Shown here: positions 1-9,879 of the stretch, one piece after another
Layout of the letters: each line of letters begins with the position of its first letter
Numbering within the stretch: position 1 is the first letter of the stretch
Origin: Roseburia sp.
Lineage (GTDB): Bacteria > Bacillota > Clostridia > Lachnospirales > Lachnospiraceae
NCBI GenBank assembly: GCA_023664685.1
Contig: JAMPFC010000018.1
Coordinates: 1-41,897, forward strand
Direction of reading: 5' to 3'
Length of the DNA stretch: 41,897 bases
Program-made: the position numbers and the translations under genes
Notes under the pieces: generated by a model
The model's database searches: none
What the model was told of the DNA's origin: nothing
Seen by the model: only the letters and a program-made list of their open reading frames with translations

Positions 1-634
1 GTCTGGACATTAAAATAACCGTCCTCTCCGGAATTTTTATGTCCAGACAGGTTGCATTTTCAGCGATATTGCGCTGGCTCAACATAACCCCTTTGCTTTT
101 TCCGGTCGTGCCGGAAGTAAACATGATCGTACAAAGACTGTCCGGGTCAATGCTGCACTTAAAACCGGTTTCCTGCTCGCTAAGACACTGCCAGAACGAA
201 TACATTTCCTCCTCATTTTCTTTTTTTTGCATGGAAATGACCGCTTCCAATTTGGGACACTTTTCTTTTAACAACATCGCGACATCTTTCCGCATCTCAT
301 CCAGTACCAAAACAGAAGCATCCGAGCGGTCGATCAGTTCACACATCTCTTCTGCCGGAAGGGAAAAGTCAAGCGGAACCGCTACACTGCCGCTGTTTAC
401 TGTACCGAGGTACGCAGTGATCCACTCATAAGAAGTCCGTCCCGTTATGGCAATGTGCTTTCCGGTCTTGCCAAACTTACAAAGAAGCGCAGAGAAACGT
501 TCACTGTCCTCTTTTAACTCCGTATAGGATTTTGTCTCAACGGTATCTTTGTTTACTTTATACCGAATGGCATCTTTAGGCCCGTATTTTTTTTCCGTAT
601 GCGCTAAAATTTCCTGAATCGTATGAAATAACAT
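1..634 (-). CDS. AMP-dependent acyl/aminoacyl ligase, N-terminal part (cut by window edge)
   Basis: Last visible gene of the TetR-controlled cluster; only the first 211 codons are present and the reading frame leaves the window at base 1. It starts at an ATG at 634-632 preceded by AAAAGGAGG. The visible part matches the N-terminal domain of the acyl-CoA synthetase / NRPS adenylation superfamily. The phosphate-binding motif FTSGTTGKSKGVM lies at about residues 172-184, and a TGRTSYEW..YLGTVNSGSVAVPLD segment at 64-89 is typical of the family. Such enzymes activate a carboxylic acid as acyl-AMP and pass it to CoA or a carrier-protein thiol. Because the neighbouring upstream gene encodes a free carrier protein, loading of that protein is the natural inference. 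The substrate cannot be read because the specificity pocket is outside the window. Confidence 0.88.
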   Translation of the reverse strand, partial: MLFHTIQEILAHTEKKYGPKDAIRYKVNKDTVETKSYTELKEDSERFSALLCKFGKTGKHIAITGRTSYEWITAYLGTVNSGSVAVPLDFSLPAEEMCELIDRSDASVLVLDEMRKDVAMLLKEKCPKLEAVISMQKKENEEEMYSFWQCLSEQETGFKCSIDPDSLCTIMFTSGTTGKSKGVMLSQRNIAENATCLDIKIPERTVILMSR

Positions 635-659
635 GTACTGCCTCCTTTTCCTGAATGGA

Positions 660-893
660 TCACTCTGCCAGTTTTTGAAGATACTCCACCGCTTCTCCTA
701 CTGTCCGGAGTTCAGAAACCTCAGATAGATCAACCTCAACATCCAGTTCCTCTTCCACCTCTCCAAGCATACTCATAAAATCAAAAGACGTAAACCCGAG
801 ATCTTCCATAAACCGGGAATCTGGTGTGATGTTTTCTCGTTCTACCTCCACATAGTTACATATGATTTCTGTTAGTTGTTCAAACATAGTCAT
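660..893 (-). CDS. Free-standing acyl/peptidyl carrier protein
   Basis: A 77-residue acidic protein of standard carrier-protein length. Ser36 in the segment EDLGFTSFDFM matches the phosphopantetheine attachment site (usual form D-S-L with a preceding G), and the helix after it is rich in Glu and Asp as in ACP and PCP proteins. The start at 893 follows AGGAGGAGAGA; a second ATG two codons later is possible. It sits between a condensation-type acyltransferase and an AMP-dependent ligase with 15-25 base gaps, so it is probably the dedicated carrier of this cluster. It is not beside fatty-acid synthase genes, which argues against it being the housekeeping ACP. Confidence 0.88.
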   Translation of the reverse strand: MTMFEQLTEIICNYVEVERENITPDSRFMEDLGFTSFDFMSMLGEVEEELDVEVDLSEVSELRTVGEAVEYLQKLAE

Positions 894-908
894 TCTCTCC
901 TCCTCTTT

Positions 909-2312
909 TTATATCAGTTTTATGATATCGCCGATCGGTAAATCTGGGTTTTCAATCCCCTTGAACATGATCTTGCACAGATAATAATAAAAATATTCTA
1001 ACTGCTGACGGTTTATTGCCTGAATCTGATGTTCAAAGTTAAAATCAAGTCCGTTATCCTCCGGACGGTGCATGACAGTCAGATACATTGCCTGTGTCGT
1101 AGCGCCATTTGGATACCATTTTGTCTTATATTGGATATCGCCGAGTTTTTCCAGATCCTTGTCCCGCATCGACATCGGCTGGTAGGTCAGCGACATCGGC
1201 TCATAAACCCGCCCGGGTTCTTTTTTCCATACTTTCGTCTGGTGCGCAAAAAATGCGACCGGATCATAATTGGCATGGCGGAAATACTCGTTCTGGCGGT
1301 CTCTGATCTCATGGATGCCCTCGATAAAAGTCTTATCCTCGGAGATGATCGTGCGGAATGGGAACGAATGGAGCCTTGTGCCGCCGCTCTTCTTCTCTTT
1401 TAGTGTTGCCCTTCTGGCGATCGTCGTCGTGATCGACACATCGTCATTGTGGTTCATTTTCTGGAAATAAGTGCGGATTCCCATCATAAGCAGGCAGACG
1501 AGGGAAATATGATATTCCTCGCAAAAGTCCATCAGCCTCTTTGTCGGCTCCTCCTCGAGATGGAAAATATCCAGCTCAGAATCCACAGAACCAGATACAT
1601 TGACCGCCGCTCTCGCATTGGGATTGCCGGAAGCTTCCCGTTCTGCCTCTAGTTTTCCCGGCCCGTCGATTCCATTGTAGATCGGCTCAGAGGACTCGAT
1701 CAGTTCATGGAAAAATGCTTCATCCCGCTCCTTCGCCTTTGTACCGGCCTCATATGCCAGATCTTTTTTCAACTGTTCGATATAGGAGTACATTTCTTTT
1801 GGATAAGGAACATCCTCATATACTTTGTTGCAGTAGATTTCGATGATATCTTTCAGAAAACAGATCATTGACTGCGCATCCATGATCCGGTGGTCAACGA
1901 GAAAATACACGCCCTGAAATCCGTCCGGCATCCGGATCATCACGAGCCGGCTCATGGAAATCTCCTGTTTTACAAAAGGAACCTGTGTCCATTCCCGCAT
2001 GGTCTTTTCTGCTTCCTCCATCGTCTGGTTTGAAAAATCTATATATTCAACTTCATACTCCGCTTTCTCATCCACATACTGATACCATGTACCATCCGAA
2101 TCCTTAAAAAAACGAATGCGCAGGCATTCACAGCGCCCAAATGCCTCCATGACCGACTCGCGGAGTACGTCAAAATCAAGCTCCACCCCGATCGTAAGGC
2201 TTGTACCAATGTTCAACACTTCTTTTTTCGGACAAAAATCCATATAATAAAAGTGAAATTTCTGTGCTACCGTAAGCGGATATACCGAATACCCTTTTCT
2301 TGTTTTTCGCAT
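909..2312 (-). CDS. Condensation-domain / PapA-like acyltransferase
   Basis: A protein of about 467 residues resembling the chloramphenicol-acetyltransferase fold shared by NRPS condensation domains and PapA/alcohol acyltransferases. The best evidence is the segment YFLVDHRIMDAQSM, with His141 and Asp145 in the HxxxD arrangement; the first His of the usual HHxxxDG is Asp and the final Gly is Ala. The N-terminal PLTVAQKFHFYYMD segment matches the usual opening of these enzymes. I place the start at 2312 (MRKTRKG) because GGAG lies six bases upstream; an ATG four codons earlier at 2324 would overlap that ribosome site. It would transfer a carrier-bound or CoA-bound acyl group to an alcohol or amine. 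The substrates are unknown. Confidence 0.78.
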   Translation of the reverse strand: MRKTRKGYSVYPLTVAQKFHFYYMDFCPKKEVLNIGTSLTIGVELDFDVLRESVMEAFGRCECLRIRFFKDSDGTWYQYVDEKAEYEVEYIDFSNQTMEEAEKTMREWTQVPFVKQEISMSRLVMIRMPDGFQGVYFLVDHRIMDAQSMICFLKDIIEIYCNKVYEDVPYPKEMYSYIEQLKKDLAYEAGTKAKERDEAFFHELIESSEPIYNGIDGPGKLEAEREASGNPNARAAVNVSGSVDSELDIFHLEEEPTKRLMDFCEEYHISLVCLLMMGIRTYFQKMNHNDDVSITTTIARRATLKEKKSGGTRLHSFPFRTIISEDKTFIEGIHEIRDRQNEYFRHANYDPVAFFAHQTKVWKKEPGRVYEPMSLTYQPMSMRDKDLEKLGDIQYKTKWYPNGATTQAMYLTVMHRPEDNGLDFNFEHQIQAINRQQLEYFYYYLCKIMFKGIENPDLPIGDIIKLI

Positions 2313-2332
2313 AATATTCTCCATTTCATTTT

Positions 2333-3286
2333 CTATTCTGCCAAAAAAGCATCCAATGCCTTTTCATACTGTTCCATGTCTTTATAATAGCTCTCTGCAT
2401 GTGCGGCGCCGGGAATGATCAGCTTGCGCTTTGGCCCCGCATAATTTTCATAGATCTCCTCACACATATCGCACGGTACAAACGTATCCCCGGAACCATG
2501 TATGAGAAGCACCGGAAGTTTTGCCTTTCTTACCTCTCTGGCGGCGTTGCACTCATCCAGTCCGTAACCGGCAAGGCGGCGGTTCACCCGGTCTGTGATT
2601 GCGATCATCGGAAATGCCGGTATGTGGTACATGGAGTGCAAAACATGGGTAAATACATATTTGGGAGACGTAAATGCGCAATCCGAAACAATACCTTTGA
2701 CCTGTTCCGGAAGCTCTAAGCCGCTGCACATGAGTACCGTCGCACCCCCCATTGATGTTCCATGAAGTAAAATCTCCACCTCCGGCCCGCACTGCTTGAT
2801 CACCCATTCGATCCACCGCAGGGCGTCCAGACGGTCAAGGCAGCCAAACCCGATATATGTCCCCTCGCTCTCTCCGTGCGCTCTCGCATCCGGAAGCAGC
2901 ATACCATATCCCCGCTTCATATAAAAATCCGACAAGCCGATATAATCCTTCGTTCCCTGACTCGTATATCCGTGAAAGCATATGACGACCTTTTTTTCAT
3001 CCGTTCCCGGAAAATATGTGCCATGAAGCTTTAACCCATCGTCAGAAGCAAGATAAACATCTTCATGTTCCCGTGAGAACATCGCTTCTTTCCTCTTCTC
3101 GATCAGGGGCATATATTGTTCCCAATCCGTCCCCGCCATTTTTATCGTTCGTTTTGTATCTGCGTCTCCTTCGTGGCGTCTCATCGTCCGGTGATATAAA
3201 TATGCCGAGCCGGCCGCTTCTGCGGCAGCTAGTACACCGAAGACCGTGAGCGCCCCTTTTCTCCATCCTGCCATATCCTCCCTCAT
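2333..3286 (-). CDS. Membrane-anchored alpha/beta hydrolase
   Basis: A 317-residue serine hydrolase of the alpha/beta fold. The nucleophile elbow HGTSMGG gives Ser178, HGSGDTFVP gives Asp267 and GAAHAESYY gives His296, so a complete catalytic triad is visible. The oxyanion region FHGYTSQGTKDY is at about 104-115. The N-terminus has a hydrophobic stretch at about 11-31 after basic residues, suggesting a membrane anchor or uncleaved signal. Its ATG overlaps the stop of the SCP2-like gene by four bases, so translation is probably coupled. The family includes esterases, thioesterases and peptidases. Within this cluster a thioesterase or lipid esterase role is plausible but unproven. Confidence 0.85.
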   Translation of the reverse strand: MREDMAGWRKGALTVFGVLAAAEAAGSAYLYHRTMRRHEGDADTKRTIKMAGTDWEQYMPLIEKRKEAMFSREHEDVYLASDDGLKLHGTYFPGTDEKKVVICFHGYTSQGTKDYIGLSDFYMKRGYGMLLPDARAHGESEGTYIGFGCLDRLDALRWIEWVIKQCGPEVEILLHGTSMGGATVLMCSGLELPEQVKGIVSDCAFTSPKYVFTHVLHSMYHIPAFPMIAITDRVNRRLAGYGLDECNAAREVRKAKLPVLLIHGSGDTFVPCDMCEEIYENYAGPKRKLIIPGAAHAESYYKDMEQYEKALDAFLAE

Positions 3287-3612
3287 TTCTTAGCAGCTAT
3301 CAAATCTTTCAGTTTCAGTGCTTTCTCAATATTTCCCTCTACTTTTAATTTCTGAAGGGTAAAAGCCATGACTGGATCTAATGTCCCGGCAGCGATCTTC
3401 ATCAATGTCTGTGCCGACGCTGTAAACATGGCGTCCCTGTCATAATACTCATATGGCTCTACATACAGAGTACCCTCTTTTACCTCCACATAAAAAATTC
3501 CCGCTTCTTCGCCGGTAATGTTAAACTGATACGCAAGATGCTCCTTCACATCGCTGACATCCGCTTTCATAAATTGTTCCTTGACCTCAGAAAAAAACTC
3601 CGCATACGTCAT
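3283..3612 (-). CDS. SCP2-like sterol/lipid-binding domain protein
   Basis: A 109-residue single-domain protein resembling the sterol carrier protein 2 family. Shared features are the FNITGEEAGIFYVEV strand pair, the short DAMFTASAQTLMKIAAGTLDPVMAF segment and the VEGNIEKALKL C-terminal helix that closes the lipid pocket. SCP2 domains bind fatty acyl chains or other hydrophobic ligands without catalysis. It is the first gene of the leftward operon: AGGAGG lies nine bases before the ATG, and a sigma-70-like promoter with two palindromic sites lies just upstream. Placing a lipid-binding protein first in a cluster of acyl-transfer genes suggests that the substrate or product is hydrophobic. Confidence 0.85.
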   Translation of the reverse strand: MTYAEFFSEVKEQFMKADVSDVKEHLAYQFNITGEEAGIFYVEVKEGTLYVEPYEYYDRDAMFTASAQTLMKIAAGTLDPVMAFTLQKLKVEGNIEKALKLKDLIAAKK

Positions 3613-3669: not shown

Positions 3670-3698
3670 ACCATATCACTTTTTCGACCGCCAGTCAA
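3670..3698 (-). promoter_or_regulatory. Promoter of the SCP2-hydrolase-acyltransferase-ACP-ligase operon
   Basis: On the minus strand TTGACT (3693-3698) and TATGGT (3670-3675) are separated by 17 bases, a good sigma-A promoter. Transcription would start near 3663, about 50 bases before the first ATG. Confidence 0.75.
3684..3698. promoter_or_regulatory. Probable TetR operator, site 2 (over the -35 box)
   Basis: TCGAC-CGCCA-GTCAA differs from site 1 at two positions and covers the whole -35 hexamer of the leftward promoter. Binding here would block RNA polymerase. Assigning it to the adjacent TetR protein is inference from position and palindrome type. Confidence 0.65.
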
Positions 3699-3715: not shown

Positions 3716-3744
3716 TTAACATTTTCTCCCAAACATGTTATACT
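3716..3744 (+). promoter_or_regulatory. Promoter of the tetR-family gene
   Basis: TTAACA (3716-3721) and TATACT (3739-3744) are 17 bases apart, and TG one base before the -10 box gives an extended -10 element. It points toward the regulator gene starting at 3795. Confidence 0.65.
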
Positions 3745-3794
3745 TCTCTTGACAAAGCAAACAAAAAGCTTTCTGTTTTATGGGAGGAATCGTG

Positions 3795-4403
3795 ATGACA
3801 AACAATACTAAGTATGACCAGATTTTAGACGCACTCCAGATCTTATTAAAAAATAAAAAGCTGCAGACGATATCCGTACAGGAGATCGCCCAGACCGCCG
3901 GAATTGGAAAAGGAAGCATCTACTACTATTTTTCCTCAAAAAATGAAATTTTAGAAGCACTTGTTGAAAGAAGTTATAAAAAACCGTTGTCACTGGCAAA
4001 AAAATTGGCGGGACAGACCGAGATTCCGCCTTTTACGAGGATGGCGATGTTATTTCAGGCATGTCGGACTTCCTCGCAGAACTTTCTCAGCCACGGTTCG
4101 CCCTCACCGGGAAATGACGCAGAAAAAGCATTTATCCATCAGAAATATTTACGGTATCTGATCTCCGAATTAAAGCCGGTGCTTACCTCGATCATCGAGC
4201 AGGGAATTTCCGCCGGAGATATTGATTTTGAGTATCCGGAGGCATTGGCAGAGATCGTTCTCATCGTTTTAACGATAAAATTGGACAATACGATCGTCCC
4301 CTCCTCCGAAGAGGAAATCGCACAGACGATCCGCGGCCTGATCTCACTATTAGAAAAAGGCACCGGTAATCCTGCCGGCGCCCTTAATTTCCTGATGTCC
4401 TGA
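3795..4403 (+). CDS. TetR/AcrR-family transcriptional regulator
   Basis: A 202-residue protein with a TetR-type N-terminal DNA-binding domain. The helix-turn-helix segment SVQEIAQTAGIGKGSIYYYF is followed by SSKNEILEAL at about residues 27-56. The rest is helical and fits a ligand-binding, dimerising domain; its ligand is unknown. I take ATG 3795 as the start because GGGAGGA at 3782-3788 is at proper distance. An in-frame ATG at 3780 would overlap that ribosome site. The gene is divergent from the SCP2-led operon and the spacer holds two near-identical palindromes, so it very likely represses that operon. Confidence 0.92.
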   Translation: MTNNTKYDQILDALQILLKNKKLQTISVQEIAQTAGIGKGSIYYYFSSKNEILEALVERSYKKPLSLAKKLAGQTEIPPFTRMAMLFQACRTSSQNFLSHGSPSPGNDAEKAFIHQKYLRYLISELKPVLTSIIEQGISAGDIDFEYPEALAEIVLIVLTIKLDNTIVPSSEEEIAQTIRGLISLLEKGTGNPAGALNFLMS

Positions 4404-4432: not shown

Positions 4433-5725
4433 TTAGGTGTCAAACCGGACTGCAATCGAATTTGCATGGGCGGTCAGATGTTCTGCCTCTGCAAACTGGA
4501 TGATATCCTCATGGATCTCTTCCAGTGCTTCCCTTGAATACGAGATTAGACTGGATTTCTTAATAAAATCATCCACATTCAGCGGGGAAAAGAACTTCGC
4601 TGTCCCATTTGTCGGCAGCACATGGTTTGGCCCTGCAAAATAATCGCCGAGCGGTTCACTGCTGTATTCTCCGAGAAAGATCGCTCCGGCATTTTTGATC
4701 CGTGTCATCGTATCAAATGGATTTTTGGTCAGGATTTCAAGATGTTCCGATGCAATCTCATTTGTCACATGGATCGCATCCTCCATCGAATCTGCCACAA
4801 GAAGATATCCATAATTTTCCAATGACTTTTCTATGATCTCACGACGGCTCAACGTCTGTAAAAATCCTTCGATTTCCTTTTCTACCTTTTCAGCGAGTTC
4901 TACACTTGTCGTCACAAGGATCGCAGAAGCGAGTTCGTCGTGTTCCGCCTGTGATAAAAGATCCGCCGCCACATACTTTGGATTCGCTGTCTCATCGGCA
5001 AGCACAAGGATCTCACTCGGGCCGGCGATCGAATCAATACTCACATGACCGTACACGGTCTTTTTCGCTAACGCCACAAAAATATTTCCCGGGCCGCAGA
5101 TCTTCGCTACTTTTTTTATGGACGCCGTACCGTAAGCAAGCGCCCCGATCGCCTGCGCCCCGCCAACCTTATAGACCTCGGTCGCTCCGGCAAGATCCGC
5201 CGCTACTAACGTCGCAGGCGTCACCGTCCCGTCCGCTCCGGGCGGCGTCGTCATGACGATGCGCTCTACTCCGGCTACTTTTGCCGGAATGATATTCATA
5301 AGAACACTGGAGGGATATGCCGCCTTTCCGCCCGGCACATACACACCGATGCTTTCAAGCGGTGTAATCCGCTGTCCGAGAATTACGCCATCCTCTCTCG
5401 TCTCGATCCATGTATTCCGGAGTTGTTTTTGATGGAAATCGCGGATATTTTCGATCGATTTTTTCATCACCTCAACAAGTGATGCATCTACGAGGGAATA
5501 CGCCTGTTCGATCTCTTCTTTGGTCACGCGGATAGTTTCACTATGGATGTCTGCATGATCATATTTTTTCGTGTAGGCAAACAATGCCTCATCGCCTTTT
5601 TTCCTTACCTCGCTTAAAATTTCATTTACCTTGTCCTGATAGGAGTCATACTGGTTCGGACTCCTTTTCAACAGATTCTCCAAAATATTTTCCATCGAGT
5701 TCTGGTCAATTTTCATTCGCCTCAT
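4433..5725 (-). CDS. hisD: Histidinol dehydrogenase
   Basis: A 430-residue enzyme of normal length that oxidises L-histidinol to L-histidine in two NAD-dependent steps, the last reactions of histidine synthesis. Visible hallmarks are Glu327-His328 in ASEHLEI (the catalytic Glu-His pair), the zinc ligands Gln259 and His262 in SQAEHDE, Asp361 in GDYFAGPNHVLPT and His420 near the C-terminus. It follows hisG by 18 bases and is last in the hisZ-hisG-hisD group. The start at 5725 has AGGGAG about ten bases upstream; an ATG three codons later is possible. No terminator hairpin was found between it and the convergent regulator gene. Confidence 0.97.
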   Translation of the reverse strand: MRRMKIDQNSMENILENLLKRSPNQYDSYQDKVNEILSEVRKKGDEALFAYTKKYDHADIHSETIRVTKEEIEQAYSLVDASLVEVMKKSIENIRDFHQKQLRNTWIETREDGVILGQRITPLESIGVYVPGGKAAYPSSVLMNIIPAKVAGVERIVMTTPPGADGTVTPATLVAADLAGATEVYKVGGAQAIGALAYGTASIKKVAKICGPGNIFVALAKKTVYGHVSIDSIAGPSEILVLADETANPKYVAADLLSQAEHDELASAILVTTSVELAEKVEKEIEGFLQTLSRREIIEKSLENYGYLLVADSMEDAIHVTNEIASEHLEILTKNPFDTMTRIKNAGAIFLGEYSSEPLGDYFAGPNHVLPTNGTAKFFSPLNVDDFIKKSSLISYSREALEEIHEDIIQFAEAEHLTAHANSIAVRFDT

Positions 5726-7666: not shown

Positions 7667-8887
7667 TTAGTGATAGATCGATTTTGGCTGCTGGCTCTCT
7701 GCCTCAAATCCGGCGTCTTTCAGCGCCTGTATGATGGCATTCTTATGTTCATGGCCAAACGCCTCCATCGTGATCGTAAGCTCCACAGCGGCATTCCGGT
7801 TTATGCTCACAAACTGGTTATGCTCCAGACGGATGACATTTCCCTGTGCTTTTGCGATGACCTCTGCCACATGGAGAAGCTCGCCCGGCCGGTCTGGAAG
7901 TTCAATCGACACCGTAAAGACACGTCCTCTCTGGATTAGTCCGTGCTGTACGACAGATGAAATCGTGATCACATCCATATTTCCGCCGCTTAAGATCGAA
8001 ACGACCTTTTTGCCCTTGATATCCAGATGTTGAAGTGCCGCTACAGTCAGCAGGCCCGAATTTTCCACGACCATTTTATGGTTCTCCATCATATCAAGGA
8101 AATTTACGATCAGGTCATGGTCGTCAACCGTGATGATATCGTCGATGTTTTTCTGGATATATGGGAAAATATTCGTCCCGGGTGTTTTCACCGCAGTACC
8201 GTCAGCGATCGTACTGACCGACGGAAGGGAGACAACCTCTCCTTTTTTGAGCGATTCCTGCATGCAGTTGGCGCCGGCAGGTTCTACGCCGATCACCGTG
8301 ATATTCGGATTTAACAGCTTGGCAAGTGTCGAGACCCCGCAGGCAAGACCGCCGCCGCCGATCGGAACGAGTATGATATCCACGGTCGGCAGTTCCTTAA
8401 AAATTTCCATCGCGATCGACCCCTGTCCGGTCGCAACCGTCTCATCATCGAATGGATGGACAAATGTATATCCGTGTTCCTCCGCCAGTTTCAGGGCATG
8501 GCTGCAGGCGTCGTCGTATACATTACCATGTAAGATCACCTCCGCACCATAACTCTTCGTCCGGTTTACCTTGATGAGCGGTGTCGTATCCGGCATGACG
8601 ATAACTGCCTTGACGCCGAATAACTTCGCCGCATAGGCAACTCCCTGCGCATGGTTTCCGGCGGACGCTGTGATCAGTCCCTTTTCTCTCTCTTCTTCGG
8701 AAAGAGTGCTGATCTTATAATAAGCCCCTCTTACTTTATATGCGCCGGTATACTGCATATTTTCCGGCTTCAAATATACTTTGGCGCCAGTCTGGGCGCT
8801 GTAATACTCACTGTAGATCAGATTGGTGGGAAGAATGACCTCTTTTACCCGGTCACTCGCCTCCTCAAATTTTTCTAATGTCATCAT
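7667..8887 (-). CDS. ilvA: Threonine ammonia-lyase with C-terminal ACT domain
   Basis: A 406-residue PLP enzyme that converts L-threonine to 2-oxobutanoate and ammonia, feeding isoleucine synthesis or threonine catabolism. Lys51 in TGAYKVRGAYYK is the PLP lysine, ASAGNHAQGVA is the substrate loop, and the phosphate-binding GGGGL is at 177-181. A single ACT-like domain (FTVSIELPDRPGELLHVAEV) occupies about 330-400. This length matches the TdcB-like threonine dehydratase class with one ACT domain rather than the longer E. coli IlvA, so tdcB is an alternative name. The start has only a weak ribosome site; ATG at 8884 is equally possible. Confidence 0.93.
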   Translation of the reverse strand: MMTLEKFEEASDRVKEVILPTNLIYSEYYSAQTGAKVYLKPENMQYTGAYKVRGAYYKISTLSEEEREKGLITASAGNHAQGVAYAAKLFGVKAVIVMPDTTPLIKVNRTKSYGAEVILHGNVYDDACSHALKLAEEHGYTFVHPFDDETVATGQGSIAMEIFKELPTVDIILVPIGGGGLACGVSTLAKLLNPNITVIGVEPAGANCMQESLKKGEVVSLPSVSTIADGTAVKTPGTNIFPYIQKNIDDIITVDDHDLIVNFLDMMENHKMVVENSGLLTVAALQHLDIKGKKVVSILSGGNMDVITISSVVQHGLIQRGRVFTVSIELPDRPGELLHVAEVIAKAQGNVIRLEHNQFVSINRNAAVELTITMEAFGHEHKNAIIQALKDAGFEAESQQPKSIYH

Positions 8888-8937
8888 GGTTTGCTGTCAT
8901 CTGCCTTTCTTTCCATTGTCCCGAAACTCTATTATTT

Positions 8938-9879
8938 TCAAGACTCCTGTGGTTCTGTTATATCAAAAAGTGCATCGGTAAATGCATCTGCATCAAATTT
9001 CTGCAGGTCGTCAAGCTGTTCCCCGATCCCGATGTATTTAACCGGGATATTTAATTCCGACTGGATCGCGATCGCGATGCCGCCCTTTGCTGTCCCATCC
9101 AATTTTGTAAGGACGACGCCGGTAATATCAGCCGCTTCGCTAAACTGTTTTGCCTGAACGAGCGCATTCTGACCGGTCGTCCCATCGACGACGATCAACG
9201 TCTCGAGGCATGCCTCGGAATATTCGTTTTCAATGATCTTATAAATCTTATGCAGCTCTGCCATCAGGTTCTTTTTATTGTGGAGGCGTCCCGCGGTATC
9301 ACATAAAAGTACATCCGTGTTCCTCGCCTTTGCCGCCGCAACCGCATCATATACGACCGCCGCCGGGTCTGCGCCCTCCTGCCCGGCGATGATATCCACA
9401 CCGGCACGTACAGACCACTCCTTCAACTGCTCGATCGCTCCGGCACGAAACGTATCTGCCGCCGCCAGAAGCACTTTTTTTCCGTCCGCCTTTAACTGTC
9501 CTGCCAGTTTTCCTACACTTGTAGTCTTTCCGACGCCGTTCACCCCGATAAAAAGAATGACGGATTTTTTATGTTCAAAATCATAGGCGTCCTCATGTAC
9601 CTTCATCTGCTCCTTGATCGTATCGATGAGAACCGACCGGCACTGCGCCGCCTCTTTTATCTTTTCTTCTTTTACCCTCTCCTGTAATTCTTCGATGATC
9701 CGCATGGAATTTTCCACGCCGATATCTGCCATCACCAGCTGCTCTTCCAGTTCTTCATAAAAATCATCATCAATCTCCGAAAATCCGGAAAAGATCGAAT
9801 TGATCCCAGAGGAAAAACTAGTACGGGTCTTACTCAAGCCGCTTTTTAGCCGGTTAAAAAATCCCTTTTTTTCACTCAT
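8938..9879 (-). CDS. ftsY: Signal recognition particle receptor FtsY
   Basis: A 313-residue SRP-family GTPase that docks ribosome-nascent chain-SRP complexes at the membrane. The P-loop GVNGVGKTT is at 112-120, followed by DTFRAGAIEQL, DTAGRLHNK and TKLDGTAKGG, all in the expected order for an NG domain. It has only a short basic N-terminus in place of the long acidic A domain of E. coli FtsY, as in other Gram-positives. It overlaps the end of smc by eight bases and uses AGGAG within the last codons of smc, a common smc-ftsY coupling. Confidence 0.97.
   Translation of the reverse strand: MSEKKGFFNRLKSGLSKTRTSFSSGINSIFSGFSEIDDDFYEELEEQLVMADIGVENSMRIIEELQERVKEEKIKEAAQCRSVLIDTIKEQMKVHEDAYDFEHKKSVILFIGVNGVGKTTSVGKLAGQLKADGKKVLLAAADTFRAGAIEQLKEWSVRAGVDIIAGQEGADPAAVVYDAVAAAKARNTDVLLCDTAGRLHNKKNLMAELHKIYKIIENEYSEACLETLIVVDGTTGQNALVQAKQFSEAADITGVVLTKLDGTAKGGIAIAIQSELNIPVKYIGIGEQLDDLQKFDADAFTDALFDITEPQES

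Follow-up and report, generated by a model that had tools for sequence, protein, structure and literature searches.

Gene Organization of the Cluster

The stretch of DNA analyzed here, referred to as the window, is an entire contig of 41,897 nucleotides (C41) from the draft genome of a Roseburia sp. (2,998,971 bases in 131 contigs, 98.75% complete). At its left end, five leftward genes on the − strand encode, in order of transcription, an SCP2-like lipid carrier protein (3283..3612; Pfam SCP2, 57.1 bits, cut-off 21.3), an alpha/beta serine hydrolase with an N-terminal hydrophobic stretch and an S178/D267/H296 triad (2333..3286; Hydrolase_4, 50.9 bits, cut-off 27), a free-standing condensation enzyme, C, with the motif DHRIMDA (909..2324; Condensation, 140.4 bits, cut-off 31), a free-standing acyl carrier protein, T, with Ser36 (660..893; PP-binding, 51.4 bits, cut-off 21), and the N-terminal 211 codons of an AMP-forming acyl ligase, A, cut by the contig edge (2..634; AMP-binding, 121.6 bits, cut-off 30). 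These genes and the divergent gene of a TetR-family regulator that accompanies them are the subject of this report.

The spacing is tight, with one 4-base overlap followed by gaps of 8, 15, and 25 bases. An initial annotation, made from the sequence alone, had described five closely packed genes on one strand, and the coordinates, spacing, and Pfam matches bear this out; it overlooked the divergent TetR gene (3780..4403, + strand) and two operator-like sites. The set is not a product of chance, since the same order recurs in dozens of Lachnospiraceae loci with differing neighbors. The HxxxD acyltransferase and the carrier serine recognized earlier are also upheld: His145 and Asp149 of the C protein are invariant in 38 of 38 aligned rows and Ser36 of the carrier protein in 36 of 36. 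No second carrier protein was found among the six genes scanned with Pfam, carrier proteins elsewhere in the genome not having been searched.

Family Placement of the Condensation Enzyme

The C protein has 471 residues, within the range of 300–520 taken from the preprint PMC13142362, and its motif falls inside the pattern published there for OaaC-like enzymes, (D/H)HxxxD followed by S, A, or G. Its top match in the PDB was 12kh_A (354 bits, E 1e-104, residues 14–470), and the runner-up reached 29.6 bits. Entry 12KH is OaaC, which together with a carrier protein and a ligase yields fatty-acid amides (FAAs) in vitro (PMC13142362; here and below, this preprint and PMC13060934, also a preprint, are cited from partial texts). 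The window protein and OaaC are 37.8% identical over 458 positions.

A tree of 103 C protein rows placed the window, OaaC, and 80 relatives of the C-T-A (CTA) type in one group with a Shimodaira–Hasegawa-like approximate likelihood ratio test (SH-aLRT) value of 100, separate from 21 condensation domains of nonribosomal peptide synthetases (NRPSs) of the same order. The tree was built by a quick method with SH-aLRT values and no bootstrap, and its NRPS branches are long. For the NRPS rows, 28 loci were found and 22 entered, of which 21 were kept after an empty row (L145) was dropped; two loci with partial C proteins (L060 and L138) were excluded from the tree. The common group is split into an OaaC branch of 23 rows including OaaC (value 100) and a branch of 59 rows including the window (value 81), which locus L061 and a family designated f2 join with a support of only 81. 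The window C protein belongs in the sister branch of the OaaC type.

Besides this gene, no Condensation-domain match was found in the window's genome at E 1e-15. The C protein had no match among 50,697 phage records and matched 20 of 72,556 plasmid records, all below 60% identity; the five plasmid matches listed have 20–21% identity, four carrying NRPS or adenylation-protein annotations and the fifth none. A mobile-element reading was rejected on these phage and plasmid results.

Gene Order in the Two Branches

Loci with OaaC-type enzymes are called type I and those with enzymes of the window's branch type II; the labels are those of this analysis, set by a profile score of 550 bits, and they agree with the tree. 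Of 392 genomes from the order, 33 had a match to the C protein, one in each. CTA-type matches were present in 21 of 61 genomes, again one per genome, a 22nd match (G048) being an NRPS with 24% identity. When one genome from each of 84,980 species was scanned, 39 loci emerged; because their selection relied on peptide patterns taken from the C protein of the window, this set favors the window's type. Three pairs of loci share identical C proteins, and the decayed locus L064, below the score limit, was dropped.

According to tblastn, 42 of the 60 type II loci contain TetR, SCP2, hydrolase, C, T, and A in this order, among them L123, where a 36-residue remnant is all that is left of TetR; a search for the gene order in other genomes had been proposed in the initial annotation. 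A stricter profile count on open frames gave 39 of 59, the two figures differing because of the methods and the assignment of the fragment L138 (type I in the profile count, type II in the tblastn, TetR, and operator counts). At least four of the remaining 18 loci are cut by a contig end (L038, L048, L049, and L060). SCP2 is present in 48 of 60 type II loci versus none of 22 type I loci, the hydrolase in 58 versus 8 (both by tblastn), and a full divergent TetR gene in 49 versus none. Faint TetR-like profile matches (18–31 bits) lie downstream of C in 14 of the 22 type I loci, and none is divergent upstream. With its C protein in the sister branch and both SCP2 and TetR present, the window falls outside type I. 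The accessory genes are not always found together: five type II loci have TetR without SCP2 (L050, L053, and L135–L137), three have SCP2 without TetR (L059, L105, and L106), and in L061 the SCP2 gene is located at the opposite end of the cluster.

Among 37 genomes of the window's genus, 11 carry type II, 10 carry type I, and none carries both (probability about 0.015 under independence, uncorrected for kinship). Neighbors outside the cluster recur in at most 6 of the 39 scan loci. In six close relatives (L026–L028, L030, L031, and L063), the unit lies beside neighbors like those of the window, hisG- and hisD-like by eye and in five cases also hisZ-like, which makes it a stable chromosomal locus in these kin. 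Type II is also carried by the named isolates Lachnoclostridium sp. An196 (L034) and An131 (L036).

Some loci depart from this picture in other ways. Two have record titles naming Muribaculaceae (L043) and Thermoflexaceae (L052), and their C proteins group tightly with those of Lachnospiraceae; they are likely mislabelled bins, transfer being the alternative. About 370–500 bases separate the carrier and ligase matches in L055, L056, and L057, whereas the window is tightly packed. The dropped locus (L064:9433–11342) holds a TetR gene and then fused remnants of C and the ligase, with no match to SCP2, hydrolase, or carrier protein, and is a decayed copy of the cluster.

The TetR Regulator and the Paired Operator-Like Sites

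The divergent gene was assigned to the TetR family by a TetR_N match of 42.3 bits, by alignment, in which the recognition-helix region is conserved, and by its persistence as a neighbor. In the gap between it and the SCP2 gene, the operon strand carries the near-palindrome TTGACTGGCGGTCGA (3698–3684) and, 44 bases on, a second one, TCGACTGGTGGTCGA (3654–3640). The TTGACT of the first site is the −35-like box of a promoter-like site for the operon (3670..3698, − strand), which matches the consensus with TTGACT, 17 bases, and TATGGT, a TG preceding the −10 element; the second site lies between this promoter and the SCP2 start. Another consensus match, TTAACA, 17 bases, and TATACT (3716..3744, + strand), is a promoter-like site for the TetR gene. 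The layout is similar in the relatives, where the TTGACC or TTGACT of the first site forms a −35-like box and a −10-like element follows 16–18 bases later.

When one mismatch is allowed, every type II locus with an intact TetR gene (49 of 49) has at least two 15-base near-palindromes upstream of the operon. They are 43, 44, or 45 bases apart in 46 of the 48 loci with exactly two hits and 22 bases apart in the other two, both of family f2; in L136, the remaining f2 locus, there are three hits, of which the last two are separated by 24 bases. In this family (L135, L136, and L137), the sites are about half the usual distance apart (22–24 bases) and end in TCAA rather than TCGA, and it is the second site that, by eye, immediately precedes the −10-like element. 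Where a full TetR gene is absent from a type II locus (n = 11), nine loci have no site and two have one; L046 and L114, which lack TetR and have identical C proteins, carry one degenerate site each. No site was found in 21 of 22 type I loci, and L134 has a single one-mismatch hit. The pattern had no hit in 613,771 bases of the operon strand downstream of C starts, the region covered by that search. Locus L123 amounts to a natural test: of its TetR protein only the last 36 residues are left (8887–8994), and the sites have decayed to two and three mismatches, their spacing still being 44 bases. L061 retains the sites, 43 bases apart, though its TetR protein is only 32% identical, and the recognition-helix region is conserved.

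The exact operator pattern occurs in the window's genome at these two sites only, and its reversed control is absent. Across 39 genomes of the genus, TTGACCNNNGGTCGAAAA was found 11 times in six genomes, and every copy lies 1.3–1.4 kb upstream of the C gene of a type II locus. The reversed control of this sequence was found 0 times; the window's own site reads TTGACT and falls outside this count. The paired sites and the TetR gene fit a dedicated local regulator that would bind at the operon promoter. A ligand could not be assigned to this regulator from its sequence, the PDB and NCBIfam matches being weak and of mixed function. The element TTGACCNNNGGTCGA presumably resembles the RutR box of E. 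coli, a likeness that a literature search left unsettled.

The Ligase and Its Probable Substrate

Bases 10–76 of the window overlap another contig of the same genome (G000:C43) with 98.5% identity over 67 bases, and the remainder of the ligase gene lies on that contig (L003:14180–15136), directly after a 100-N scaffold gap. The frames of the window and C43 combined give a ligase of 504 residues that is 73.9% identical to that of locus L028 (498 positions, one gap). The overlap and the combined frame indicate that the gene was cut by the assembly and is intact. Past base 1, where the initial annotation had suggested extending the sequence, the ligase continues unbroken, and a broken ligase was rejected as an explanation. 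We infer from the overlap and the relatives that the window contig joins C43. Within C43, the gap (L003:14080–14179) connects the C-terminal part of the ligase with what is, by eye, a truncated acetyltransferase-like gene; as the window overlaps the right-hand side, this scaffold join is probably incorrect or incomplete. Compared with L026–L063, the N-terminal part of the ligase is less conserved than the C-terminal part (63% vs. 80% for L026).

The top NCBIfam model for the window fragment was the long-chain-fatty-acid--CoA ligase, under its cut-off, and for the full-length L028 ligase it was again a long-chain-fatty-acid ligase (246 bits, cut-off 476). As to the specificity, a prediction of which the initial annotation had called for, the best model is a long-chain fatty-acyl ligase, with scores below the cut-off. 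The aminoacyl group that had been proposed as an alternative substrate is unlikely given this best model.

The SCP2-Like Protein and the Hydrolase

The SCP2-like protein matched the SCP2 structures in the PDB weakly (best E 1.2e-5). A second SCP2-domain match in the window's genome (G000:C98:14431–14664) lies within a 340-codon open frame.

Ser178, Asp267, and His296 of the hydrolase are invariant in 36 of 36 aligned rows. Its single N-terminal hydrophobic stretch has a mean hydropathy of 1.48 over 19 residues, with values up to 1.95 in relatives. The "anchored hydrolase" of the initial annotation thus stands as to the hydrolase domain and the hydrophobic stretch, and membrane anchoring, at this modest hydropathy, is likely. 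Relatives were found at E 1e-20 in 36 of 61 genomes, several of them without a C match, so the hydrolase is not specific to the pathway; in the window's own genome it is the sole match at E 1e-5 in a single-protein search. Its use as a pathway-specific marker was rejected, relatives being common outside such clusters.

Proposed Function and Alternative Explanations

On the strength of sequence comparisons and of the analogy with OaaC, we consider it probable that the genes form a regulated and extended CTA-family operon for the synthesis of FAAs (acyl amines). Its function is most likely the ligand-induced conjugation of a fatty acid with a small amine, the identity of the amine and the TetR ligand and the roles of SCP2 and the hydrolase being predicted. 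Using ATP, the ligase would activate a fatty acid of medium or long chain length and attach it to Ser36 of the carrier protein, as suggested by the OaaA/OaaACP precedent and the domain identities. The condensation enzyme would then hand the acyl chain to a small diffusible amine and release an N-acyl amide, as does OaaC. The SCP2-like protein may carry the hydrophobic substrate or product, and the serine hydrolase may liberate fatty acids from lipids, clear or recycle acyl products, or edit the carrier. At the promoter, TetR would occupy the two operator-like sites, the first of which covers the −35 box, until released by a ligand, most plausibly a fatty acid, an acyl derivative, or an amine. 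The cell would probably benefit because toxic free fatty acids are rendered harmless, an advantage that has been proposed for Blautia wexlerae (PMC13060934), and host-active lipids would arise as a by-product. Having a TetR regulator, the operon is plausibly inducible by a fatty acid or an amine, in agreement with the fatty-acid toxicity reported in PMC13060934. The earlier idea of something like a dissected NRPS, whose proteins activate, hold, and pass on an acyl group, fits this proposal, as does that of a hydrophobic ligand.

Several observations weigh against it. At 37.8% identity to OaaC, the acceptor of the window's C protein may differ or be no amine. The L028 ligase scored under every NCBIfam cut-off (best 25 of 32 matches), and its two top PDB matches were 4-coumarate- and feruloyl-CoA ligases (about 112 bits), so that an aryl acid substrate is conceivable. 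Relatives of the hydrolase occur in members of the genus without a C match (G002, G007, G009, G011, G016, and G023). Twelve of the 60 type II loci showed no SCP2; some of them, such as L038 and L060, are cut by a contig end, and others, such as L046, L053, and L137, are uncut, which indicates that SCP2 is dispensable. As to the operators, the motif was derived from the same loci in which it was later counted. A longer trial pattern was equalled by 57 of 100 shuffles in L047 and by 21 of 100 in L124. One-mismatch hits in the window numbered 5 versus 1.14 expected, a count that 2 of 100 shuffles reached, and one of them (5695–5709) lies inside a hisD-like coding sequence. Among the 39 genus genomes, a looser 15-base pattern also occurred in 7 that have no type II locus with TetR, and the reversed control of this pattern occurred in 28. 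The 15 bases alone are therefore not rare, and the argument is carried by place, pairing, and the longer form.

A different product would follow if the C protein moved the fatty acyl group to an alcohol in the manner of PapA, giving an ester similar to a wax or glycolipid that the hydrolase would cleave and SCP2 carry. The HxxxD fold serves ester formation too, a hydrolase of an esterase-type family adjoins C, and the identity to OaaC is only 37.8%. However, the PapA5 model matched with an E of 0.26 against 1e-104 for OaaC, and the tree places C with OaaC; we regard ester formation as quite improbable. The donor could instead be an aryl or branched acid, and the product an N-aroyl or N-acyl amide beyond the known FAA set. 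The coumarate and feruloyl ligase matches mentioned above speak for such a donor, but their scores are low and nearly equalled by the third match, a fatty-acyl-CoA synthase (111.7 bits); the top profile is a long-chain fatty-acyl ligase, and an SCP2 protein would suit a long hydrophobic ligand. We regard this donor as quite improbable.

It is also conceivable that the operon chiefly degrades fatty amides or lipids, with the hydrolase acting first and C-T-A recycling the fatty acid. The triad is intact and 58 of the 60 type II operons include the hydrolase; however, only 8 of 22 OaaC-type loci have it, OaaC is linked to synthesis in print (PMC13142362), and relatives of the hydrolase are widespread, so that degradation as the main task seems very improbable. 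The loading of a starter unit for a lipopeptide made by an NRPS elsewhere in the genome was suggested by the closeness of OaaC-like enzymes to starter condensation domains (PMC13142362). This explanation, which we regard as extremely improbable, was rejected because no further Condensation-domain match was found at E 1e-15 in the 98.75% complete genome; in addition, the cluster has a single carrier protein and the six genes recur among differing neighbors.

The proposal of a regulated FAA operon can be extended to a more specific model, which we put forward tentatively and consider rather doubtful as a whole. Type II would be a self-contained inducible operon for fatty-acid disposal and signalling: TetR would sense free fatty acids or the amine and work a two-operator switch, SCP2 would ferry the acyl chain to and from C-T-A, the anchored hydrolase would supply or recycle it, and the branch would use an amine of its own. 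If this were true, gut fat would set the output of host-active acyl amides.

Comparison with Known Systems

Free-standing condensation enzymes of the VibH type transfer a carrier-bound acyl group to a soluble amine, as proposed for the window's enzyme, but with an aryl donor and a siderophore as the product. FAA clusters were reportedly first described by Chang et al. in 2021. Host receptors are targets of the FAAs that gut Clostridia make (PMC13142362, PMC13060934). For such synthesis, the type II variant offers a candidate regulator, likely DNA sites, and two accessory proteins, and it marks a separate enzyme branch; through the candidate regulator and its sites, the timing and purpose of this lipid production could be tested directly.

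The closest described systems are two. The oleoyl aminovaleric acid (OAA) cluster of Coprococcus eutactus is described with three proteins, OaaC, OaaACP, and OaaA (PMC13142362). The window shares with it the free-standing C, carrier, and ligase proteins, a C protein homologous over its full length, the noncanonical DHxxxD motif, and membership of one clade. It differs in the 37.8% identity and sister-branch position of its C protein, in having DA in place of DS after the motif, and in the addition of SCP2, the hydrolase, and the divergent TetR gene. The CTA operon of Blautia wexlerae and other Lachnospiraceae is described as a three-gene operon, occurs in 36 species, all of this family, and has been linked both with making acyl amines and with relieving the toxicity of fatty acids (PMC13060934); the C-T-A order and the Lachnospiraceae host are common to it and the window. 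The same source used 70% identity to catalogued C and A proteins as its cut-off, and the window was compared with OaaC only (37.8%).

The words sterol, hydrolase, and TetR do not occur in the main text of PMC13142362, nor hydrolase, sterol carrier, and TetR in the searched text of PMC13060934. A wider literature search, the scope of which did not include Chang et al. 2021, gave no report of an extension by SCP2, hydrolase, TetR, and a two-site promoter. The view of the initial annotation that no described pathway has this set of genes does not hold for the core, since the order of free-standing C, T, and A is published (PMC13142362, PMC13060934). The core of the operon is therefore already described, and its extension by SCP2, the hydrolase, TetR, and the paired operator-like sites may be new.

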